In this document: positions 7,186 to 23,210 of the stretch, piece after piece | Numbering within the stretch: the first letter of the stretch is position 1 | Layout of the letters: every line of letters begins with the position of its first letter | Assembly (NCBI GenBank): GCA_029547025.1 | Contig: JAKPQA010000093.1 | Span: 1 to 58,719, forward strand | DNA length: 58,719 nt | Source of the DNA: Armatimonadota bacterium | GTDB lineage: Bacteria; Armatimonadota; Zipacnadia; UBA1398; JAKPQA01 | Reading direction: 5' to 3' | Program-made: the position numbers and the translations under genes | The notes under the pieces: generated by a model | Database searches by the model: none | What the model was told of the DNA's origin: nothing | The model's input: the letters and a program-made list of their open reading frames with translations, nothing else

Positions 7186-7574
7186 CAACTGGATTCCGGC
7201 CCCGAGGCACCACGCCAGCCGGCTGGACCCGGCCAACGGCAGCTCAGTCCCAAAACCCACCGGTCGGCGCGACTCAACGCCATGCGGTGGGAGGCCAAGC
7301 TGACCCTCTCGCTGGCTTACCCCCTATCCGGAGTTATCATTCGGTGCCGCTGCGCCGACTCCTGCGCTCGCCGCCAGAGCGCGGTGGCCCGGTGGCCCCA
7401 CGGACTACACGGCACCCTCCGTTTGCGTTATGATGGATGCCGAACTGCGCTGCGAGTCTGCACCGCCGAGCTGGCGTGCTGGTTGGTGCAGTTCGTACCT
7501 CGCCGTCTGGCCCCCCTCCGGTCGCCTCGCGCGAGCCGTTGGTTGCATGGGTCCAGGGGCCGCGGAGGATGTAC
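7186..7574. other. Divergent intergenic region, 389 bp
   Basis: Separates the minus-strand secreted protein from the plus-strand foldase gene. A TATGAT hexamer at 7429-7434 could be a -10 element for the plus strand, but no convincing -35 sits 17 bp upstream. The plus frame of the downstream gene is open through the last 137 bp, but its composition and the ribosome binding site at 7564-7568 argue that this part is untranslated. I see no RNA gene or repeat. Confidence 0.4.
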
Positions 7575-9209
7575 ATGCCATCGTTCATTCGGTTCCAGAA
7601 GAGCGCCGGCTCCAGAAGGGCCTCCAAGATCATCCTCGCGATCATCGCGGCGATTTTCGGAGTGGGCGCCTTCTTCAGCTTCGGTGGGAGCCCGGGGCGG
7701 AACCCCATGGGCTCCATCCCCGACGCCTTCAGAGTCAACGGCAAGACCATCAACATGGCCGAGTTCCACCAGGCACTCGAGAACTACGAGAACCAGATGC
7801 AGATGTATGGGGGATCCAAAGGCGATCCGACCCGTGAGCGCGCCATGCAACTGGCCGTCATGAAAGAGCTCATCGTCGACACGGCCCTGCAGCAGGATGC
7901 CGCAAGGCGCAAGCTCAGTGCGAGCAGCGAGGACATCGAGAAAGCCCGCCTCGAGTGGATCCAGCAGCAGACCGCCAGTCTCGGCGAAGGAGCGGCCAAG
8001 CAAAAGGCGCTCATCGAGGAGAACATGACCGAAGCGGAGTTCAACGAGCGAATCCAACAGCGCGCTCGGTCGCTGGGTATGCAGCAGTACTTTACCCACA
8101 AGATCGTCATGGAGAAGCTCGAGGAAGCCATCACCGCGGACGCGCAGATCTCGGACGAGCATCTGGAGCAGTCCTACACTCAGGTCTCGCTCCGCCATGT
8201 GCTGGTGAAGTACGACCCCAAAGCCACCGAGACAGCGGATGCAGCCACCCCCAAGCCGGCAGAGACCAAGGGTGAGGGCGAAGGCAAGGATGGCAAGGGC
8301 AAGACCACGCGCACCAAGGCGGCGGCCGAGAAACGAGTGAACGAGCTCTATGAGCGCGCCAAGAAGGGCGAGGATCTGGCGGCCATCGCCAAGGCCGAGT
8401 CGGATGATTGGTCGGCGACCAACGGCGGACAGCTGACCCTCCAGCGCGGCGACTTCACGTCCGAGCAGCTGGGCGATGCGTTTACCGACGCGGTCTACAA
8501 AGCCAAGATCGGCGAGCTGTCCAAGCCGATCGAGGTCAAGGATGGTTTCAGCTTCTTCAAGGTCGAGTCGAGGAAGACAACCAAGCCCAACGACTTCGCC
8601 GAGAAGAAGGAGGACTACCGGAAGCAGAAGCTCGACCAGAAGAAGAGCCGCCTGTTCGCTGAGTACCGCGATGAGCTGCAGAAGAACGCGCAGGTTGAGG
8701 TCATCGACGAGCAACTCAAGGCTTTCAAGCTGATCGAAGACGGGAAGAAACAAGAGGCGCTGGCCCTGCTCCGCAAGCTATGCGCCGATCGAACGAAACA
8801 GGCTGAAGGCGGCCGTGGCGCCTCTGCCAACGAGCCCGAGCGCCGCGTCGGCGCGGTCATCTGGTACGAGATTGCCAAACTGGAGCAGGACCTGGGGAAT
8901 CCCCAGGAGGCGGACGCTGCCTTCGCTAAGGCCATTGAGGAGGGCGAGTGCCCCGCCCTGCACCTGGAGTACGGGAACTTCCTCCGCGCACAGAACCGCC
9001 GCGAGGACGCCCTGCAGGCCTACCAGGCAGCGAGTGAGGCTGCCACCGTGCGCGATCTGCAGATCCGCTACGCCCTCCGGGCCGCCTACGAGGAGATGGG
9101 CGAGAAGGACCTGGCCAAGGCCCAGCAGGCCGAGATCGAGAAGGCCACCCAGGCCTCGGGGATGGGTGGCATGGGCGGAATGCCGCTGAACTTGCCCATG
9201 TCGCCATAG
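7575..9209 (+). CDS. Membrane-anchored PpiD/SurA-like peptidyl-prolyl isomerase with C-terminal TPR-like region
   Basis: A 544-residue periplasmic foldase anchored by one N-terminal helix (KIILAIIAAIFGVGAFFSF, about 18-36). Of two close ATGs (7569, 7575) the second has proper spacing from GGAGG at 7564-7568. A SurA/PpiD N-terminal helical chaperone region (about 50-200) is followed by a parvulin-type PPIase domain from SLRHVLVKYD (about 203) to FFKVESRK (about 333). That domain is interrupted by a Lys/Ala/Pro/Glu-rich linker (about 215-250), so isomerase activity may be weak. The C-terminal third has TPR-like helices and a short GMGGMGGM tail. It heads a run with rsmI, a second PPIase and a presenilin-like protease, suggesting envelope protein quality control. 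Confidence 0.86.
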   Translation: MPSFIRFQKSAGSRRASKIILAIIAAIFGVGAFFSFGGSPGRNPMGSIPDAFRVNGKTINMAEFHQALENYENQMQMYGGSKGDPTRERAMQLAVMKELIVDTALQQDAARRKLSASSEDIEKARLEWIQQQTASLGEGAAKQKALIEENMTEAEFNERIQQRARSLGMQQYFTHKIVMEKLEEAITADAQISDEHLEQSYTQVSLRHVLVKYDPKATETADAATPKPAETKGEGEGKDGKGKTTRTKAAAEKRVNELYERAKKGEDLAAIAKAESDDWSATNGGQLTLQRGDFTSEQLGDAFTDAVYKAKIGELSKPIEVKDGFSFFKVESRKTTKPNDFAEKKEDYRKQKLDQKKSRLFAEYRDELQKNAQVEVIDEQLKAFKLIEDGKKQEALALLRKLCADRTKQAEGGRGASANEPERRVGAVIWYEIAKLEQDLGNPQEADAAFAKAIEEGECPALHLEYGNFLRAQNRREDALQAYQAASEAATVRDLQIRYALRAAYEEMGEKDLAKAQQAEIEKATQASGMGGMGGMPLNLPMSP

Positions 9210-9233: not shown

Positions 9234-10085
9234 GTGGAGTCGGCAAGCGGCTGTCTCTACGTGGTCGCCACGCCCATTGGCAACCTGGAGGATGTCACCC
9301 AGCGTGCCCTCCGCATGCTGGCCGATGCCACCTTCGTGGCGGCCGAGGATACCCGCCGTGTGCGGAAGCTGCTGTCGCACCATGGCATCCACACGCCAAC
9401 GGTCGCGTACCACGAAGCCAACAAGCACAAGGCCACACCCGAGATTGTCGACCGCCTGGTCCGGGGGGCCCGCGTCGCCCTCGTCTCTGATGCCGGGACG
9501 CCGGGCATCGCTGATCCGGGAAGCGCACTGGTGCGTGCGGCGGCCGAGGCGGGAGTGCGCGTCGTGCCCATCCCTGGCCCCAGCGCCCTGACCGCTGCCC
9601 TGTCCGTGTGTGGGTTCGACACCCGGCATGTCCGGATGCTCGGATTCCTGCCCAAGCGCCTGAGCGAACGGCGGCGTGTGCTGGCCGGGTTAGCCGATGA
9701 GACGGCCACAACCGTCGTCTTCGAGGCGCCGGGACGCGTCGGCGACACACTGCGCGCCATGGCCGGCATCTTCCCCCAACGGCAAGTGCTCCTGCTGCGG
9801 GAGATGACGAAGGTCTTCGAGGAGTGCATCCGAGGAACCACGGCCGAGGTTGCGGTGGTCCTGACGGAGCGCGGCGAGCTGCGCGGCGAGTTCGTCATCG
9901 TCCTCGAGGGCGCCCCGGTCGCGTCCGGCGGCGCGCCATCCGACGAGGCCGTCCGCGCGCGTCTGCACGCCGTGCTCGGCGCCGGTGTCGACAAGCGAAG
10001 CGCCGTGTCGGCGGTGGCGGCCATCCTTGAAGTGCCGCGGTCGCGCGTGTACGATATCGCCGTCGACCTTGCCGAGAGCCTCTAG
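9234..10085 (+). CDS. rsmI: 16S rRNA (cytidine(1402)-2'-O)-methyltransferase
   Basis: SAM-dependent enzyme that 2'-O-methylates C1402 of 16S rRNA in the decoding centre. The GTG at 9234 lies 7 nt after a near-ideal GGAGGTGA; 283 residues is the normal family length. Diagnostic tetrapyrrole-methylase-fold motifs are LYVVATPIGNLEDVTQRAL at the N-terminus, AAEDTRRVRKLL, LVSDAGTPGIADPGSALV, and PIPGPSALTAALSVCG for the cofactor pocket. A helical C-terminal RsmI tail (SAVSAVAAILEVPRSRVYDI) closes the protein. Only 24 nt separate it from the upstream foldase stop, so it is almost certainly in the same operon. Confidence 0.96.
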   Translation: MESASGCLYVVATPIGNLEDVTQRALRMLADATFVAAEDTRRVRKLLSHHGIHTPTVAYHEANKHKATPEIVDRLVRGARVALVSDAGTPGIADPGSALVRAAAEAGVRVVPIPGPSALTAALSVCGFDTRHVRMLGFLPKRLSERRRVLAGLADETATTVVFEAPGRVGDTLRAMAGIFPQRQVLLLREMTKVFEECIRGTTAEVAVVLTERGELRGEFVIVLEGAPVASGGAPSDEAVRARLHAVLGAGVDKRSAVSAVAAILEVPRSRVYDIAVDLAESL

Positions 10086-10117
10086 CAGGCAACTCGGTCT
10101 TGCGGGGGAGCATCCTC

Positions 10118-11164
10118 ATGCTCGGGAAGCTGGCGGGCCCTCGGATCGGCTACGGGTCCATGGCGGCGTTCACAACCGCCTCGTGTCTTGCAATCCTCAT
10201 CCCTTGTGGGGCGGCCCCGCTCCACAGCACCCCCGCCGACGCGCCCGCGGCCACCGTGAACGCCGAGACGATCCTCGCCGGCGACCTGATGAGAGAGATC
10301 CAGGAGCGCTACGCCCTGCAGACCCTCGAGCAGATGATATTCGAAGCCGAGATCGCCGGGCGGGCGGCGCGGCTCGGCCTGACGGTTTCCGAAACCGAGT
10401 GGCGGCAGGAGGCCATGGCGCGGTGGTCGACGACAGAGAGTCCTATTGGTACCGATGCCGAGCTCGACGAACGGCTCCGGCACGTACCCGCCTGGGTCGT
10501 CTCCGATCTGCGCAACGAGCTGCTGCTTGCCAAGATCCTCAACGCCAGCGTCCAAGCCACCGACGCTGAGGTGCGAGAGCTGTACGACTCAGGGGTCATT
10601 GCGACCACCAAGGGCACGGCGGTGAAGCTCAGGCGCATCGTCTTCAAGCGCGAGGCGGACGCCAGGGGCATGCGGCCCAGCCTTCGGGCCAGCAACTTCG
10701 CCGAGTTCGCCCGCCAGGTCTCGGAGGACGAGTTCCGCGACCAGGGAGGGGACTGGGGTTGGCACACGCTCTCTTCGCTCCCGGATGACCCGGAGCTGCG
10801 CAAGTTCGCCGAGACGGCCGAGATCGGGGTCCCAAGCCAGCCACTACCGCTGAAGGAGCCGCCGGGCTGGGTGATCCTTCTCGTCGAGGATCGCCGAACT
10901 GACGCGCCGCTGCCCTACGACGAGGTGCGCGGCCAGCTCGAGACGCTGGTTCTCGAACGCAAGAAGGACGAGGTGCTGCGCGGGTGGCGCACCCGGGTGC
11001 GGTCACTGGCCGCCATTGTCGCCCTCGACAAGGCCTTTCGCGCGATTGTCCCCGGACCGTCGCCCAGAGCGCTCCCTGCCGACCCAATGACACCCGCCGC
11101 ACCCGAGGCGCCGCCACCCACTGATGGGGCCCCGACCCCTCAGCCAACGGGGGGCGGCGGATGA
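10118..11164 (+). CDS. Secreted SurA/PrsA-type peptidyl-prolyl cis-trans isomerase
   Basis: A 348-residue exported foldase. The ATG at 10118 has GGGGGAG with a 7-nt spacer; an in-frame TTG at 10100 lies upstream of that site and is disfavoured. An N-terminal hydrophobic signal ends near ILIPCGAAP; the Cys might be lipidated, but the lipobox is poor. A SurA-like helical region is followed by a parvulin domain (about 167-260: VKLRRIVFKREA, FAEFARQVSEDEFRDQGGDW, PGWVILLVEDRR). The C-terminus is a Pro/Ala/Gly-rich tail ending GGGG. Its stop overlaps the next gene's start by 4 nt (ATGA), so translation of the presenilin-like protein is probably coupled to it. Confidence 0.86.
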   Translation: MLGKLAGPRIGYGSMAAFTTASCLAILIPCGAAPLHSTPADAPAATVNAETILAGDLMREIQERYALQTLEQMIFEAEIAGRAARLGLTVSETEWRQEAMARWSTTESPIGTDAELDERLRHVPAWVVSDLRNELLLAKILNASVQATDAEVRELYDSGVIATTKGTAVKLRRIVFKREADARGMRPSLRASNFAEFARQVSEDEFRDQGGDWGWHTLSSLPDDPELRKFAETAEIGVPSQPLPLKEPPGWVILLVEDRRTDAPLPYDEVRGQLETLVLERKKDEVLRGWRTRVRSLAAIVALDKAFRAIVPGPSPRALPADPMTPAAPEAPPPTDGAPTPQPTGGGG

Positions 11165-12093
11165 CCGGCAGTGAGGCCCCCGCGGGCCACGGACACCCCG
11201 CCGATGCCATCTCGGGGCCGTACACTGGCGTCACTCCGCGCGAGTCTCGCTCCACCGCTTTTCTCTGGGGCCCCCTGATCGCTTACGTGCTGCTGCGGCT
11301 CGGCCTGCCAGCCCTTCGCATTCCGTCCTCGCCCGGGCTCGATGTCTTCTGGAGCACCGCCCTGGCGACTCTCGCCCTTTGGTCCGCCGTCGGGTTGGGC
11401 ACCAGCTTGCGGACCCGCCTCCGCCAGGTGCTCGTTCTCGCAGCATCTGTGCCCGTTTTCATTCTGATCGTGAGGGTCGTCGCTCCGGCGGCCGATGGTC
11501 ACTGGGCCGTCGCAGTCGCATCCGATCTGTGCCAGCTCGTTGCCGCCGCTGCCGGTGGGGCACTGCTCTCCTCCCTGGTCCGCGAGTCCAAGGTCGTCCC
11601 CGTTCTCGTGGTCACGGTCGGCCTCGTCGACGTGGTTGGTGTCTGGTTCGGCGGCCCCGTAGCCATCCTGATCGAGTCGAAGCCCGATGTCGTGGCCGCG
11701 TTCTCGCAGAAGATCCCGAGGCCAGGCTCTGCCGTCCAGCCAGCAGGGCCCGGGGAGGCACCCCGCGTGTCCTACCTCGCCACCGCGGGCCTCGGTGACC
11801 TGGTGTTCGTCGCCTTTTTCTTCGCCTGTGTGGCACGGTTCGGTCTCAGCTACGCCCCCACACTCGCGACCACCCTGGTCCTCGGGGCTGCCGCCATGTG
11901 GCTGGCCACCGCGCGAGACCTGCCCGTGCCCGCACTCCCCTTCCTGGCCGTGGGCACGCTCATCTGCAACGCCCGGCACTTCCGCTACACCCGTGCAGAG
12001 CGGTTCGCGCTCCTCTACGGCGCCGTGTTCCTCATCGGCATGTGTTTCCTGATCGTCTGGGGTACCCAGTGGCTCCGGTCGCTCTCTCGATAG
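11161..12093 (+). CDS. Presenilin/signal-peptide-peptidase-like GxGD intramembrane aspartyl protease (predicted)
   Basis: A 310-residue protein with about eight or nine hydrophobic segments. All three hallmarks of A22-type proteases occur in order: an Asp in a transmembrane helix (D157 in TVGLVDVVGVW), a GxGD motif (G210-L-G-D213) in the next hydrophobic block, and PALP (257-260) before the last helices. Spacings of 56 residues (Asp to Asp) and 44 residues (GD to PALP) are close to those I recall for presenilins and archaeal presenilin homologues. The first Asp is preceded by Val instead of the usual Tyr. A hydrophilic loop with an 'E..PD..' helix lies between the two aspartates, as in presenilin. 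Type IV prepilin peptidases also use GxGD but lack PALP and have a different layout. Start ATG overlaps the upstream PPIase stop. Confidence 0.66.
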   Translation: MTGSEAPAGHGHPADAISGPYTGVTPRESRSTAFLWGPLIAYVLLRLGLPALRIPSSPGLDVFWSTALATLALWSAVGLGTSLRTRLRQVLVLAASVPVFILIVRVVAPAADGHWAVAVASDLCQLVAAAAGGALLSSLVRESKVVPVLVVTVGLVDVVGVWFGGPVAILIESKPDVVAAFSQKIPRPGSAVQPAGPGEAPRVSYLATAGLGDLVFVAFFFACVARFGLSYAPTLATTLVLGAAAMWLATARDLPVPALPFLAVGTLICNARHFRYTRAERFALLYGAVFLIGMCFLIVWGTQWLRSLSR

Positions 12094-12361: not shown

Positions 12362-14851
12362 GTGAGGCACACCTATAGGCCTAGCGAGATCGAACCCAAG
12401 TGGCAGCAGAGATGGCGCGACACCGCCCTGTTCCGTACGTCGGATGACGCGTCACGGCCCAAGTTCTACTACTTGGACATGTTCCCATACCCCTCGGGCG
12501 ACCTCCATGTGGGCCATGTTCGCAACTACGCTCTCGGCGACTGCGTAGCCCGGCAGAAAGTCATGCGCGGCTACCGCGTCCTGCATCCCATGGGCTGGGA
12601 TGCCTTTGGATTGCCTGCGGAGAACGCGGCTCTCGAGCGCGGAGTCGATCCGCGCCAATGGACCGAACGGTGCATCGCCGAGATGCGGCGCCAGTTCGAT
12701 CAGCTCGGGATCAGCTACGACTGGGACCGCGAGGTGGCCGCCTGCCGGCCCGAGTACTACCGCTGGACCCAGTGGGTCTTCGTGCAGCTCTTCCGTGCCG
12801 GTCTCGCGTACCGGAAAGAAGCCCCCGTCAACTTCTGTCCCAAGTGCAGCACGGTCCTGGCCAACGAACAGGTCAAGGACGGCCGGTGCGAACGGTGCGA
12901 CTCGGTTGTGGGCCAGCGCAACATGGAGCAATGGTTCTTCCGGACCACGGCGTTCGCGGACCGCCTACTCGATGATCTGGCGCTGCTCGACCGCTGGCCC
13001 GAACGGGTCCGCACCATGCAGCGGAACTGGATTGGCCGGAGCCAGGGTGTCGAGATCGACTTCGTCATCGAGCCCGTGGGAGAGACCATCACCGTCTTCA
13101 CCACCCGGGTCGACACGATTTTCGGGGCGACATTCGTGGCCCTGGCAGCCGAGCACCCCATGGCGGCTCGACTCGCCAGCGGGACCCCTCGCGAGGCCGA
13201 GGTGTTGGCCTTCATCGACGCGGTACGCAACGAGCATGCCACGACCCGTGGCGGCGAAGAGGCCGACAAAGTGGGCGTGTTCACGGGCGGCTACGCCATC
13301 AACCCCATGAACGGCGAGCGACTGCCGGTCTGGATTGCCAACTACATCCTCACGGGCTATGGCACCGGCGCCATCATGGCGGTTCCCGCACACGACCAGC
13401 GCGACCTCGAGTTCGCTCGCAAGTACGACCTGCCGGTGCGCGTGGTGATCCAGCCCGAGGGCGACGCCCTGGATGCTGAGACCATGACCGAGGCCTATGT
13501 GGGGGAGGGGACGCAGGTCAACTCGGGCCAGTTCGACGGCCTTCCCTCCGAGCAGGGCAAGGAGGCCATTGCCGACTACATGGAATCCCAGGGCTTCGGG
13601 CGGCGCGCCGTCAACTACCGCCTCCACGACTGGTGCATCAGCCGGCAACGCTACTGGGGCGCACCCATCCCCATCATCTACTGCGAGGAGCATGGCCCCG
13701 TGGCCGTGCCCGAGAGCGACCTGCCCGTGCTGCTGCCCGAGGACGCCGACCTCCGCGAGTCCGGCCGGTCACCTCTGGCCTCGTCGCCCGCCTTCGTCAA
13801 CGCGCCGTGCCCGAAGTGTGGCAAGCCGGGCCGGCGCGAGGTCGACACCATGGACACCTTCGTCGACTCCTCCTGGTACTTTCTCCGCTTCGCCAGCCCC
13901 CATGAGGAGACTGTGCCCTTCGACCGGGCCGCTGTCGACTACTGGCTGCCCGTCGACCAGTATGTCGGCGGTGTCGAGCACGCGGTGCTGCATCTCTACT
14001 ACGCCCGGTTCGTCACCAAAGCGCTGCACGACCTGGGATACCTGAGCTTCGTCGAACCTTTCGCCGAGCTCTTCACCCAGGGCATGATCGTCAAAGACGG
14101 CGCCAAGATGTCCAAGTCCAGGGGCAATGTCGTCCGTCCCGACGCCATCATCGACAAGTACGGCGCCGATGCGCTGCGCCTCTTCATCCTGTTCGCCGGG
14201 CCGCCCGACCAGGACGCCGAATGGAGTGACGAGGGCGTCGCGGGATGCTTCCGTTTCCTCTCCCGGGCTTTCTCTGCCGTGGCGAACCACACCGATGCCT
14301 ACGACCCCGAATGGCGGCATGCTCTAGCCTCGGCCGAGTTCTCCCCTGCCGCTGCGGCGATCCGCCGGAAGCTTCACCAGACCATCGCCAAAGTCACCTC
14401 GGAGATTGAGGAACGCTTCCATTTCAACACGGCCATCGCCGCGTTGATGGAGTACGTCAATGATCTGACCCCATTCCTCGAGGGCGGCCTCGACGGCATC
14501 CAGGAGCGCATCGTGTTCAGTGAGGCCGCCGACACCCTGACTCTGCTGCTCTCGCCGTTCGCGCCCCACCTGGCCGACGAGCTGTGGGAGCGGCTGGGCC
14601 ACGAGGGCAGCACCTACTCGCAAGCCTGGATCGACGCCGATCCCGAGGTGGCTCGCGAGGAGTCCATCGAGATCCCGGTTCAGGTGAATGGCAAGGTGCG
14701 AGGCCGCGTCGTAGTCCCCGTCGATGCCGCCGAGGATGAGGTCAAACGCCTGGCCCTCGAGCTCGATCGTGTCAGAGCCCAGCTCGAGGGAAAGCAGGTC
14801 CGCAAGGTCATTGTGGCCGCGGGCCGACTCGTCAGCATCGTGGCCTCTTAG
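12362..14851 (+). CDS. leuS: Leucyl-tRNA synthetase
   Basis: Class Ia synthetase charging tRNA-Leu; 829 residues, normal for bacterial LeuRS. The GTG start follows GAGAGGAG by 7 nt. The ATP-binding HIGH-type motif is HVGH (49-52, in YPSGDLHVGHVRNY) and the KMSKS loop begins at K582 (KMSKSRGN). A zinc-knuckle CPKC...CERC lies near residue 160, followed by the CP1 editing domain (about 220-400, with TGYGTGAIMAVPAHDQRD). The leucine-specific/CP segments (YWGAPIPIIYC, CPKCGKPGRREVDTMDTFVD) precede the anticodon-binding helices and C-terminal tRNA-binding domain. It is preceded by its own probable promoter, although read-through from the upstream operon is possible. Confidence 0.98.
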   Translation: MRHTYRPSEIEPKWQQRWRDTALFRTSDDASRPKFYYLDMFPYPSGDLHVGHVRNYALGDCVARQKVMRGYRVLHPMGWDAFGLPAENAALERGVDPRQWTERCIAEMRRQFDQLGISYDWDREVAACRPEYYRWTQWVFVQLFRAGLAYRKEAPVNFCPKCSTVLANEQVKDGRCERCDSVVGQRNMEQWFFRTTAFADRLLDDLALLDRWPERVRTMQRNWIGRSQGVEIDFVIEPVGETITVFTTRVDTIFGATFVALAAEHPMAARLASGTPREAEVLAFIDAVRNEHATTRGGEEADKVGVFTGGYAINPMNGERLPVWIANYILTGYGTGAIMAVPAHDQRDLEFARKYDLPVRVVIQPEGDALDAETMTEAYVGEGTQVNSGQFDGLPSEQGKEAIADYMESQGFGRRAVNYRLHDWCISRQRYWGAPIPIIYCEEHGPVAVPESDLPVLLPEDADLRESGRSPLASSPAFVNAPCPKCGKPGRREVDTMDTFVDSSWYFLRFASPHEETVPFDRAAVDYWLPVDQYVGGVEHAVLHLYYARFVTKALHDLGYLSFVEPFAELFTQGMIVKDGAKMSKSRGNVVRPDAIIDKYGADALRLFILFAGPPDQDAEWSDEGVAGCFRFLSRAFSAVANHTDAYDPEWRHALASAEFSPAAAAIRRKLHQTIAKVTSEIEERFHFNTAIAALMEYVNDLTPFLEGGLDGIQERIVFSEAADTLTLLLSPFAPHLADELWERLGHEGSTYSQAWIDADPEVAREESIEIPVQVNGKVRGRVVVPVDAAEDEVKRLALELDRVRAQLEGKQVRKVIVAAGRLVSIVAS

Positions 14852-18116: not shown

Positions 18117-21100
18117 CTAGTCGTCCAGCGCATCGGGCGATGCGTCGGGAGCGTCCTCGTCCGGGTCGTCGACGGTGAGGCCGGCGATGTCGGAACCCTC
18201 CTCTTCCTCCGCCTCATCGAGGCCCTCGTCGGCGAACAGCTCCTCCTCGTCCGCGGCCCCGCTGGGCTCAGCGTCATCATCCACCACGGCCTCCACCGGC
18301 TCCTCATCGCCCTCGCCCGGGACCTCCACGGCCTCCGTGTCCTCCAGCTCGTGCTCGTCCTCATCAGCGCTGAACAGGCGGAAGGACCGGTCGTCTGCCG
18401 TGTCCACGCCCGCGAACTCGTGCCAAACGGCCGACACGGGCAGTGGCGCCAGGTCCGTGTCGCGGTACGTGGCCAAGCCGCTCCCCGCGGGGATCAGTCG
18501 GCCGATGATCACATTCTCCTTCAGCCCGCGCAGCGGGTCGATCATGCCGCGCGTCGCCGCCTCGGTGAGCACCTTGGTCGTCTTCTGGAACGAGGCCGCC
18601 GAGAGGAAGCTCTCGGTCTGGAGGGAAGCCTCGGTGATGCCGAGCAACATCCATTCGCCCTGCCCAGGACGGCCACCCAGCGACTGCACGCGCCGGTTCT
18701 CCTCCTCGAAGATGAACCGATCGACCACCTGCCCGGGCAGAAGGTCCGTGTCCCCATGGTCGATCACACGGATCTTGCGGAGCATCTGCCGGACAATGGT
18801 CTCGATGTGCTTGTCGTTGATGTCCACGTCCTGGCCCCGGTACACGCGCTGGATCTCGCGAACCATGTACTCCTGCACCGCGCGCACCCCGCGCATGGCC
18901 AGAATCTGCTGCGGATCCAGGGGCCCCTCCGTCAGGCGATCCCCCGCCCGAACCTTCATGCCCTCTTCGACACTCAGATAGCCGCGGTAGGGCACCAGGT
19001 AGGCCCGGCGGATTACCACCGACTTGATCTTGTGCCGGCGCAGTAGCTTGATCTGACGCTCGCCAAGCTCCTCGCCCTCGTCGACCACCAACTCGTCGTT
19101 CTTCGTGCGAACGGGCTCGGCCGCCACCTCGCCACGGAGGATGTTCGTCTCGTCCACCGGCAGCTCGGAGTGGATGATGACCCGGCGCAGGCCCGTCTCA
19201 TCGATCTTCGCCACGGTACCATCCAGGTGAGTGACGATCGCCATGCCCTTGGGCTTGCGAGCCTCGAAGAGCTCCACCACCCGCAGCAGGCCGCCTACCG
19301 GATCCTCGAGGACCTTGAGGACCGCCTGGATCGCCTTGACGTTCTCCCGCTCCTGCTCTCCCGCGTCGAGCTGCACCAGACCACGGCTAATGTCCTCGTG
19401 AAGCTGGCGGATGGTGTCCTGCCGCTTGCGCTTCACGTCCGCCACACCGGTGAGGTACTTCGCCGCCACCCCGCCGGTGTGGAAGGTGCGCATCGTCAGC
19501 TGGGTGCCCGGCTCACCGATCGACTGAGCGGCAATGATCCCAATGGCCTCGCCGATCTCGACCGGACGCCACGACGCCATGTCAACTCCATAGCACAGAA
19601 CGCAGATCCCCTGACGCAGCTCGCAGGTGAGCGGGCTGCGGATCCGCACGCGCCGCATCCCCGTCGCCACCACGCGGGCAGCTGTCTCATGGGTAAAGAA
19701 CTCACCGGCATTGATAATGACCTCGCCGGTCTCCTCATCGATGATCGGCTCCGCGGCCACTCGGCCCACGAGACGCTGGTCCAGGGGAACCGCCAGGTTG
19801 GCCGACACCGTGGGCAACTCCGCGCCGCAGAACTGGCAGTTCCATGGGGGCTCGCCATCCCGATGGAGGTCCTCCTCGCCACAGCGACGGCAGAAGCAGT
19901 CCTCCTCGTAGATGGGCGAGACCTCAACGCCCTGAGCGGTCCCGCAGTCCACGTCGCGGACGATGACGTCCTGCGCCACGTCCACGAGGCGTCGAGTCAG
20001 ATACCCCGCATCCGCCGTGCGCAGGGCGGTATCCGCCAACCCCTTCCGCGCCCCGTGGGTCGAGACGAAGTACTCGAGGCAGTGAAGGCCCTCGCGGAAG
20101 TTCGACTTCACGGGCAGGTCCTCGATCAGACGCCCGAAGGGATCCGTCATCAGGCCACGCATGCCCGCCAACTGACTGACCTGCCGGTGGCTACCACGGG
20201 CCCCCGAGTCGACCATCATGGAGATCGGGTTGAACGGGTCGATGTGCTCCCGGATGGAACGCACCACACTGTCGGATGCTCTCAACCAGCTCTCGAGCAC
20301 GAGCTGCTCGCGCTCGCTCTGAGTGATATACCCCCGCCGGAACTGCCGGTTGAGGTCAACGATCTTCGCCTCGGTCTCGGCGATGAGCTTGTCGCGGCCC
20401 GTCTCGATGTCCATGTCAGAGACCGAGATGGAGATCCCCGCCCGCGTCGAGTACTCGAAGCCCAGCTTCTTGATGTCATCCAGGTACTGCACGGCGCGGA
20501 TGGCACCATGCTTGTGGTGAAGCCCCGCCACCAGGCGCGAGAGTGCCTTGCGGTCAAACAGCTGCTCGTGCAGGTGCATGTCGATGGGGGCCAGACTGTT
20601 GACGATGAGACGCCCGACGGTTGTCCGAACCCGCTCGCGCACAATGGCGAAGCGGAAGGTAGATTCGGGCGCCACCGTTCCCTCCTGGAGAGCCTCCGCC
20701 ACCGCCTCCTCAAGCTGCTCGCGCAACGCGGCGGGACCCGACGCCACCGCCGGCGCCCGGCCGGCGATGGTAGCCAGCGTCGCCTCGAGACCCGCCATGT
20801 CCTCGACGGCCTCGTCGCGCTCATCCACATCCGCCTGGGCTTCAGCTTTGGCTCGTTCCGCCTCCTCGCGAGCGGCGACCGCATCGGCGGCCTCCTGCGC
20901 CGTGAACTCGATCGGCGGGTCGTCGTACGAGATGTAGGGACCACGTCGCTCCAGACGCCGGCCGTGCGCTTGACCGCACAACGCCTCGAGGCGGTCCATC
21001 AACTTCACGTTGGGCTCCCGATCGATGTTGGTGTCGATCTGAAGCCGCTCGACCCGAACGAAAGCGCTGCGGTGAACGTCCCACTGTCCCGCCTCATAGG

Positions 21101-23117
21101 CCAGAAGGGCCTCCTCAGGCGACGCGAAGTAGCGCGTCGGGTCTCCGGAGGTGTCATCCCGGCTGAGCTGAGTTAGGTAATAGCAGCCCAAGACGATGTC
21201 ATAGAGCGGCGCCACCACCGGACGCCCGTCCGCCGGCTTGAACAGGTTCCGGTCCGCCAGCATGAGGATGCGGGCCTCAGCCTGCGCGTGGGCGGACAGC
21301 GGAACATGGACGGCCATCTGGTCGCCGTCGAAGTCCGCGTTGAACGCCTCGCACACCAGCGGATGGATCTTGATGGCCTTGCCGTCCACCAGGACCGGCT
21401 CGAACGCCTGGATGCCAAGCCGGTGCAGCGTCGGCGCGCGGTTGAGCATGACCGGATGGTCCTCGATCACATCCTCCAGCGCGTCCCACACCTCGGGCTT
21501 CAGCCGGTCCACCATGCGCTTGGCCGTCTTGATATTGGTCGTGAAGCCGTTCTCCACCAGCCGCTTCATGACGAAAGGCTTGAACAGCTCCAGCGCCATC
21601 TCGCGTGGTAGCCCACACTGGTGCAGCTTGAGCTCGGGACCGATCACGATGACCGACCGGCCTGAGTAGTCGACGCGTTTGCCAAGCAGGTTCTTGCGGA
21701 AACGTCCGTCCTTGCCCTTGAGCAGGTCGCTGAGTGACTTCAGCGGACGCCGGTTCGTCCCGGCCACCGGGTGGGCCCGGCGACTGTTGTCGATCAGGGC
21801 GTCGACCGACTCCTGAAGCAGACGCTTCTCATGGTTGATGATGGACTCCGGCGCCTTGATATCGATGATCCGACGCAGCCGGTTGTTCCGGTTGATGATG
21901 CGCCGGTAGAGGTCGTTGACATCCGAAGTGGCGAAGCGCCCCCCATCGAGCTGGACCATGGGCCGCAGCTCGGGAGGCAACACGGGCACGCAGTCGAGGA
22001 TCATCCACTCGGGCCGGTTGCGCGACTTGCGAAAGCCCTCGACCATCGAGAGGCGCTTGATGGCCCGGGCGCGCTTCGGTCCGCTGGTGGTCTCCTCGAT
22101 CTCCTTGCGGAGCTCGCGACCCAGCTCCTCGAGGTCGATCTCCGACAGCAGATCACGAATGGCCTGGGCGCCGAGACCGGCGCGCACCGCACCCGCGTAG
22201 TCCTCGCCCAGGCGCTCCGAGAGGATCTCGAGGAGGCGCATGAGTGCCCGGTACTCCAGCTCGGAGATGAGCTGCTTCTTCTCGACCCGGCCCAGGAGCT
22301 CGAGTGCCGCATCGATCTCGGTCAGCCGCTCGCGAAGGGCGTCCTCCTCCATCGCGATGCGGTCCTGGAAGTCCCGCTCGAGCTGAACCGGATCCAGCGG
22401 CCGTTCACCGAACGAGTCGTCGCCCTCATCCTCGTCCAGATCATCGACCAGGTCCTCATCCTCTTCCTCGTCATCCAACTCGGTCGTGGCCCGCTCTGGG
22501 GCCAGCCCCGTGTCGACGACCGCCACGGCACGCCCGTCGGCCAGGGCCAGGGCCTCCTCCGACAAGGCGCGCTCCTTCAGCTCCTCGAGCTGTTCGAGCT
22601 GAGCAACACGCCAACGCTCGAAGTTCTCGAGTTCCTCCTCGCGGTACTCCTGAGCGACGCGCTGAGCCTCCTCCAAGCCCTCGGTGATCCGGGTATGGTC
22701 CACATGAGTCACAATGTAGGAGGCGAAGTAGATGACCTTCTCCAGCGGCCGCGGGGACATATCCAGCAGCAGGCCGATAGGGGACGGCACTCCCTTGAGG
22801 TACCAGATGTGGCACACCGGAGCCGCCAGCTCGATATGGCCCATGCGACGCCGGCGAACCTTGGCCCGCGTAACCTCGACACCACACCGGTCGCAGATGA
22901 TGCCCTTGAACTTGACCTTCTTGTACTTGCCGCAGTGGCACTCCCAGTCTCTGGATGGCCCGAAGATGCGCTCGCAGAACAGACCGTCACGCTCCGGCTT
23001 GAATGTCCGGTAGTTGATGGTCTCCGGCTTCTTCACCTCGCCCTTGGACCACTCGCGAATCTTCTCCGGAGAGGCCAGACTGATGCGAAGCGAATCGAAG
23101 GTGCCAATGTGGGCCAA
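18117..23117 (-). CDS. rpoC: DNA-directed RNA polymerase subunit beta'
   Basis: Catalytic subunit of RNA polymerase. I place the start at TTG 23117, where the conserved '[18 protein letters not shown]' begins nine nt after AAGAGGGG. The frame extends to ATG 23207, three nt after rpoB, but the extra 30 residues look unconserved. In numbering from 23207: zinc finger 1 uses C90, C92, C105 and C108; the catalytic Mg2+ loop NADFDGDQ is at 623-630; the bridge-helix/trigger-loop region is [19 protein letters not shown]. Three oddities: an acidic Asp/Glu-rich insertion (about 243-264) in the N-terminal region; an extra CxC/CxxC...CxxC zinc ribbon (DNA 19817-19898) between VDCGTAQG and [10 protein letters not shown]; and a ~90-residue acidic C-terminal tail after the canonical end. 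A strong terminator follows. Confidence 0.97.
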
Positions 23118-23210
23118 GGCGTGTATCCCCTCTTTCCCGCGGTACCAAGCCCGCCGTCCCAATGGCCGCTCCGCACTCGAGGCGGCGGGGAAGGCGCACT
23201 GCTCCATCGA

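Follow-up and report, generated by a model that had tools for sequence, protein, structure and literature searches.

A divergent A22-like family of putative intramembrane aspartyl proteases in the bacterial phylum Armatimonadota

A gene on contig JAKPQA010000093.1 of an Armatimonadota bacterium (assembly GCA_029547025.1, a 6.3-Mb draft genome) encodes a 310-residue membrane protein, here called P0001, whose family we consider likely to be a divergent bacterial branch of the presenilin/SPP (MEROPS A22-type) aspartyl intramembrane proteases, with putative proteolytic activity. We refer to the whole stretch of DNA that was analyzed, 58,719 nucleotides, as the window. A first-pass annotation made from the letters of the window had proposed a functional bacterial protease of the presenilin/SPP type, possibly on a divergent branch. 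An A22-like family emerged from the follow-up, with two invariant Asp residues, profile matches in the PDB to presenilins only, and one relative (L025) that scores above the cut-off of the Pfam model PF04258; the word "functional" is carried forward here as putative. We describe the family as a bacterial, A22-like branch that with good probability shares ancestry with presenilin and SPP. Because it lacks the Tyr of the YD motif and, in the models, departs from the canonical number of helices, we file it as neither presenilin nor SPP.

Conservation and inheritance across the phylum

Translation of positions 11161 to 12093 places D157, GLGD (residues 210 to 213), and PALP (257 to 260) where the first-pass annotation had read them, with spacings of 56 between the two Asp residues and 44 from D213 to P257, and with V156 before the first Asp. 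The pattern D-x(45,65)-GxGD-x(35,55)-PAL occurred in 16 of 20,000 same-composition shuffles of P0001 and in none of the 676 other open reading frames of at least 200 residues at the loci of the fetched relatives. Taken alone, rarity of this order is a modest argument; the same residues are conserved throughout the phylum, and it is therefore conservation that settles that the motifs are real.

In the main alignment of 84 relatives, D157 was conserved in 83/83 and G210 and D213 each in 84/84, so that the family passes the check set by the first-pass annotation, for which homologues lacking D157 or D213 would have refuted the reading. Position 212 is Gly in 68 of the 84 sequences and Ala in the other 16, giving G-x-G-D or G-x-A-D, and the family-wide form of the third motif is P-x-L rather than the full PALP (P257 kept in 80/83 relatives, L259 likewise in 80/83). 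The spacing between the Asp residues ranges from 43 to 59 in the family. D157, G210, D213, and E280, and no others, are fully invariant columns of a 61-member alignment (A1). E280 (window positions 11998 to 12000) lies near the start of an extra C-terminal helix, is Glu in 83 of 84 relatives, and belongs to no known A22 motif; the nearly invariant N270 is likewise outside the known A22 motifs.

The distribution of the family was searched within the phylum Armatimonadota. A single-sequence search with P0001 found relatives in 86 of 101 genomes, and a profile search found them in 224 of 237 (186 of the 194 high-quality ones), nearly always as one copy per genome. All named relatives from a DNA scan of GTDB genomes were Armatimonadota, including Candidatus Zipacnadia and candidate division WS1, and the scan made with a ten-member alignment from one class (A2) returned 19 loci, labeled Armatimonadota/Armatimonadetes, Zipacnadia, WS1, or plain "bacterium." A search of plasmids and viral contigs revealed no relatives. 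A tree of 80 members indicates a vertically inherited, old core gene of Armatimonadota: of the 20 genome families represented more than once, 19 are monophyletic in it.

Some genomes depart from this pattern. Two strongly scoring relatives stand in tandem in genome G110 (C1:5630800-5632599), a rare duplication of the otherwise single-copy gene, and neither this gene nor SppA was detectable in three small genomes of family f23 (G058, G071, and G084). In the one-contig genome G066, the relative (L069:2802-3808, minus strand) is split across two overlapping frames, of which the one bearing both Asp residues is without the PAL part, from either a frameshift or a sequencing error.

Sequence and structural links to A22 proteases

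As judged by profile and single-sequence comparisons, detectable homology to A22 models is present at the level of the family only. Of 177,635 distinct PDB sequences, the A1 profile picked out at E ≤ 10 only presenilin-1 (E = 0.0013) and presenilin-2 (E = 0.0048), in alignments that run from GLGD to PALP, and the A2 profile again matched these two proteins only. When the 61 members were compared singly with 24,736 Pfam models, PF01080 (Presenilin), found in 6, and PF04258 (SPP), found in 3 and tied with PF09799, stood at the top of the list, most of these single-member matches being weak. One member, L025, scores 25.1 bits against PF04258 (curated cut-off, 23.3; E = 1.6e-5) over residues 125 to 228, a span that covers its D131 and D183. 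In a scan of the whole genomes with PF04258, the L025 gene was the single match among 101 genomes, and none of 14 control genomes had a match. The presenilin-type models of NCBIfam matched none of the 61 members.

AlphaFold2 models were built on 19 sequences and are of moderate confidence (predicted local distance difference test [pLDDT] and predicted TM-score [pTM] of 79.8 and 0.74 for P0001, and of 83.3 and 0.81 for the relative L100). The P0001 and L100 models share one helix order: four membrane helices come first; the fifth bears the first Asp and leads into two short helices and a poorly modeled loop; the sixth starts at GLGD; and a seventh, a short helix that starts at PAL (residues 258 to 269 in P0001), and a long final helix complete the chain. 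The candidate catalytic residues thus lie on adjacent helices (Table 1), and both models put the first Asp on helix 5, not on transmembrane helix 6 as the first-pass annotation had it. A short helix of P0001 (residues 166 to 173) runs from +9 to +16 relative to D157 and so corresponds in place to one of PSH: helix TMD6a of the archaeal presenilin homologue PSH (residues 171 to 177) runs from +9 to +15 relative to D162 (PMC9282858).

With the P0001 model, Foldseek ranked presenilin, PSH, and SPPL2a near the top (probability up to 0.89), an ESX-3 chain being first by E-value; with the L100 model, ranks 1 to 13 were all A22 chains (probability up to 0.98). The fold comparison with PSH that the first-pass annotation had called for pointed, though weakly, toward presenilin and PSH. 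The E-values were nonsignificant (best, 0.08) and the TM-scores were about 0.36, below the 0.5 usual for a shared fold, so this comparison lends the A22 fold weak support and does not prove it.

On family averages, Lys and Arg are enriched at the N terminus and in loops 2-3, 4-5, 6-7 (including R226 and positions 232 and 233), and 8-9 (the last with 3.4 per protein), whereas loops 1-2, 3-4, and 7-8 contain few. By the positive-inside rule, we infer from this pattern that the N terminus is in the cytoplasm and the loop between the two Asp residues outside it, as in SPP and the reverse of presenilin, the orientations of these two being mutually reversed (PMC7768045). The prediction is not watertight: the loop between the Asp residues itself carries 2.65 Lys/Arg in 41 residues.

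Weighing the assignment

Several results, besides the nonsignificant Foldseek scores, count against placing the family with A22. P0001 by itself matches no entry of Pfam, NCBIfam, or the PDB, and PF06550 (archaeal SPP) matches in none of 61 genomes, although two archaeal controls do match. The residue before the first Asp is nearly always V, A, I, or M, and the Tyr of the A22 YD motif stands there in just 1 of 83 relatives; the Val that had suggested a divergent branch to the first-pass annotation is confirmed and is one of these four residues. The second Gly of GxGD is replaced by Ala in the 16 relatives noted above. Finally, canonical A22 enzymes have nine helices, with the Asp residues on helices 6 and 7 and PAL on helix 9; both models give four helices rather than five before the first Asp, so that the Asp residues fall on helices 5 and 6 and PAL on helix 8, with one more helix at the C-terminal end.

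If the family is proteolytic, D157 and D213 would be apposed within the membrane to activate water, the unwound substrate would be held by the PAL motif and by the short helix that follows D157, and cleavage would fall inside the membrane segment of a single-pass substrate. An enzyme oriented like SPP would be suited to type II (N-in) substrates, for example leftover signal peptides or small membrane proteins. This substrate assignment is the weakest step, and we advance it tentatively. In Escherichia coli, the site-2 protease RseP cuts such leftover signal peptides and small membrane proteins (PMC10470546). SppA (PF01343) was undetected in the genome of the window and present in 76 of the 101 genomes searched, and M50 site-2 proteases were found in 60 of 61. 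With SppA present in most relatives and site-2 proteases almost everywhere, the gene content of these genomes does not settle whether the family has an SPP role and shows no simple pattern of replacement.

A more specific history, which we regard as doubtful, is that a third A22-type branch, bacterial and neither presenilin nor SPP, dates back to the ancestor of Armatimonadota and has been retained as a single-copy core gene, and that it lost the canonical first helix and gained the C-terminal one, the latter possibly replacing the former by circular permutation of the scaffold.

The rearranged helices, the lost Tyr, and the invariant E280 and near-invariant N270, which have no A22 counterpart and show other constraints, would also fit a nonproteolytic membrane protein of A22 ancestry (a transporter, scaffold, or channel) in which the Asp pair binds ions or protons; we judge this unlikely, as both Asp residues, the GxGD frame, and P-x-L are retained together throughout the phylum, as catalysis demands. 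We consider it very improbable that the protein is an unrelated polytopic one that reached D...GxGD...PAL by convergence and is nearer, for example, to the A24 prepilin/preflagellin peptidases. GxGD by itself is common to A24 enzymes, and the predicted layout and the low TM-scores depart from canonical A22; however, the list of 25 Pfam families for the 61 members contained no A24 model and was headed by PF01080 and PF04258, and the PDB profile matches are to presenilins only and reach as far as PAL, a motif absent from A24 enzymes.

The gene neighborhood bears on another reading, compatible with the protein being a protease, in which it is a dedicated partner of the neighboring periplasmic foldases in an envelope-folding operon. 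In the window, the stop of a parvulin-type peptidyl-prolyl isomerase (PPIase) gene overlaps the start of the protease gene by ATGA (11161 to 11164), and the same PPIase is upstream in the two other genomes of this order (L002 and L004). It was undetected beside the gene in other Armatimonadota. Of 81 loci, 35, from across the phylum, have leuS directly downstream, and the others have varied neighbors; we consider such a partnership improbable. The first-pass annotation had taken an envelope foldase operon as a functional clue. As a general context this was rejected, because an upstream PPIase was found only in genomes of this order (L001, L002, and L004); the neighbor that recurs across the phylum is leuS.

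Genomic context and comparison with known systems

Upstream to downstream, the genes around P0001 are a PPIase with TPRs, rsmI, the second PPIase, the protease gene, and leuS (Table 1). The adjacency of leuS probably reflects conserved gene order rather than shared function; loci without leuS downstream have varied neighbors. In much of the class, a conserved protein of about 110 residues with C-x-C-G-E and one further Cys is encoded directly upstream of the protease gene (for example, L019:2422-2823, minus strand); in related genomes it adjoins the gene at 38 loci, and it has no Pfam match. Elsewhere in the window (18117 to 23207, minus strand), the 1,696-residue RNA polymerase beta' subunit is very acidic in its C-terminal tail and also has an acidic segment in domain 1.

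Table 1. Positions in the window of the P0001 gene, its predicted elements, and its neighbors
Feature	Position	Strand	Basis
P0001, A22-like (presenilin/SPP-like) putative intramembrane aspartyl protease, 310 aa, 9 predicted membrane helices	11161..12093	+	translation, AlphaFold2
Helix 5 (predicted membrane), residues 145-162, bears first Asp	11593..11646	+	AlphaFold2 model
D157 codon, first catalytic Asp candidate	11629..11631	+	translation and alignment
Short helix, residues 166-173	11656..11679	+	AlphaFold2 model
Helix 6 (predicted membrane), residues 211-226, second Asp near N-terminal end	11791..11838	+	AlphaFold2 model
G210-L-G-D213, GxGD motif with second catalytic Asp candidate	11788..11799	+	translation and alignment
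P257-A-L-P260, PAL motif	11929..11940	+	translation and alignment
Extra C-terminal helix, residues 278-309, unexpected in canonical A22 enzymes	11992..12087	+	models and alignment
SurA_N / PPIC / TPR peptidyl-prolyl isomerase, true start probably internal	7437..9209	+	family match
rsmI, 16S rRNA (cytidine-2'-O)-methyltransferase	9234..10085	+	TIGR00096 above cut-off
Parvulin-type (PPIC/SurA-like) peptidyl-prolyl isomerase	10100..11164	+	family match
leuS, leucyl-tRNA synthetase	12362..14851	+	recurrent downstream neighbor across phylum

A search of the open literature revealed nothing that links Armatimonadota with presenilins or intramembrane proteases, and an earlier mention of bacterial members is possible. 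The most relevant study of prokaryotic members is reportedly that of Raut, Glass, and Lieberman (2021, Proteins). If our assignment is right, its status as a core gene throughout one bacterial phylum would make the A22 enzyme type a bacterial housekeeping function, which would bear on the age of the enzyme, and the family would offer small, complex-free relatives of presenilin and SPP for study. Presenilin/SPP-type intramembrane aspartyl proteases have been described from eukaryotes and archaea (PMC2947513, PMC9263693). The archaeal enzyme MCMJR1 is slowed by G219A, a change at the same Gly as family position 212 (PMC2947513), and the natural G-x-A-D variants (16/84) would amount to an experiment by nature on the presenilin mechanism.

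Compared with the SPP family (PF04258 Peptidase_A22B, MEROPS A22B), the Armatimonadota family is alike in its two Asp residues on adjacent helices, GxGD, and PAL, in the match of L025 over both Asp residues, and in a catalytic loop predicted to lie outside. It is unlike SPP in being bacterial, with 1 of 101 genomes passing the PF04258 cut-off, and in lacking Tyr next to the first Asp, which in the models four helices precede instead of five, as well as in its extra C-terminal helix and the invariant E280. Presenilin (PF01080, MEROPS A22A) shares the invariance of both Asp residues and aligns over about 57 residues through GLGD-F-x-F and PALP, whereas the Armatimonadota family has a short loop between the Asp residues (spacing as given above) and the opposite predicted orientation, and its sequence link to presenilin is limited to the GxGD-PAL half. 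Archaeal PSH/MCMJR1 of Methanoculleus marisnigri (PDB 4HYG and 4Y6K) differs in that PF06550 finds no counterpart in the 61 genomes, in a TM-score of 0.30 to 0.34 on the query, and in the further helix that P0001 has after PAL; the two proteins are nonetheless of similar size, with Asp-Asp spacings of 56 in P0001 and 58 in PSH, P0001 has a TMD6a-like short helix at +9, and PSH chains are among its Foldseek matches.
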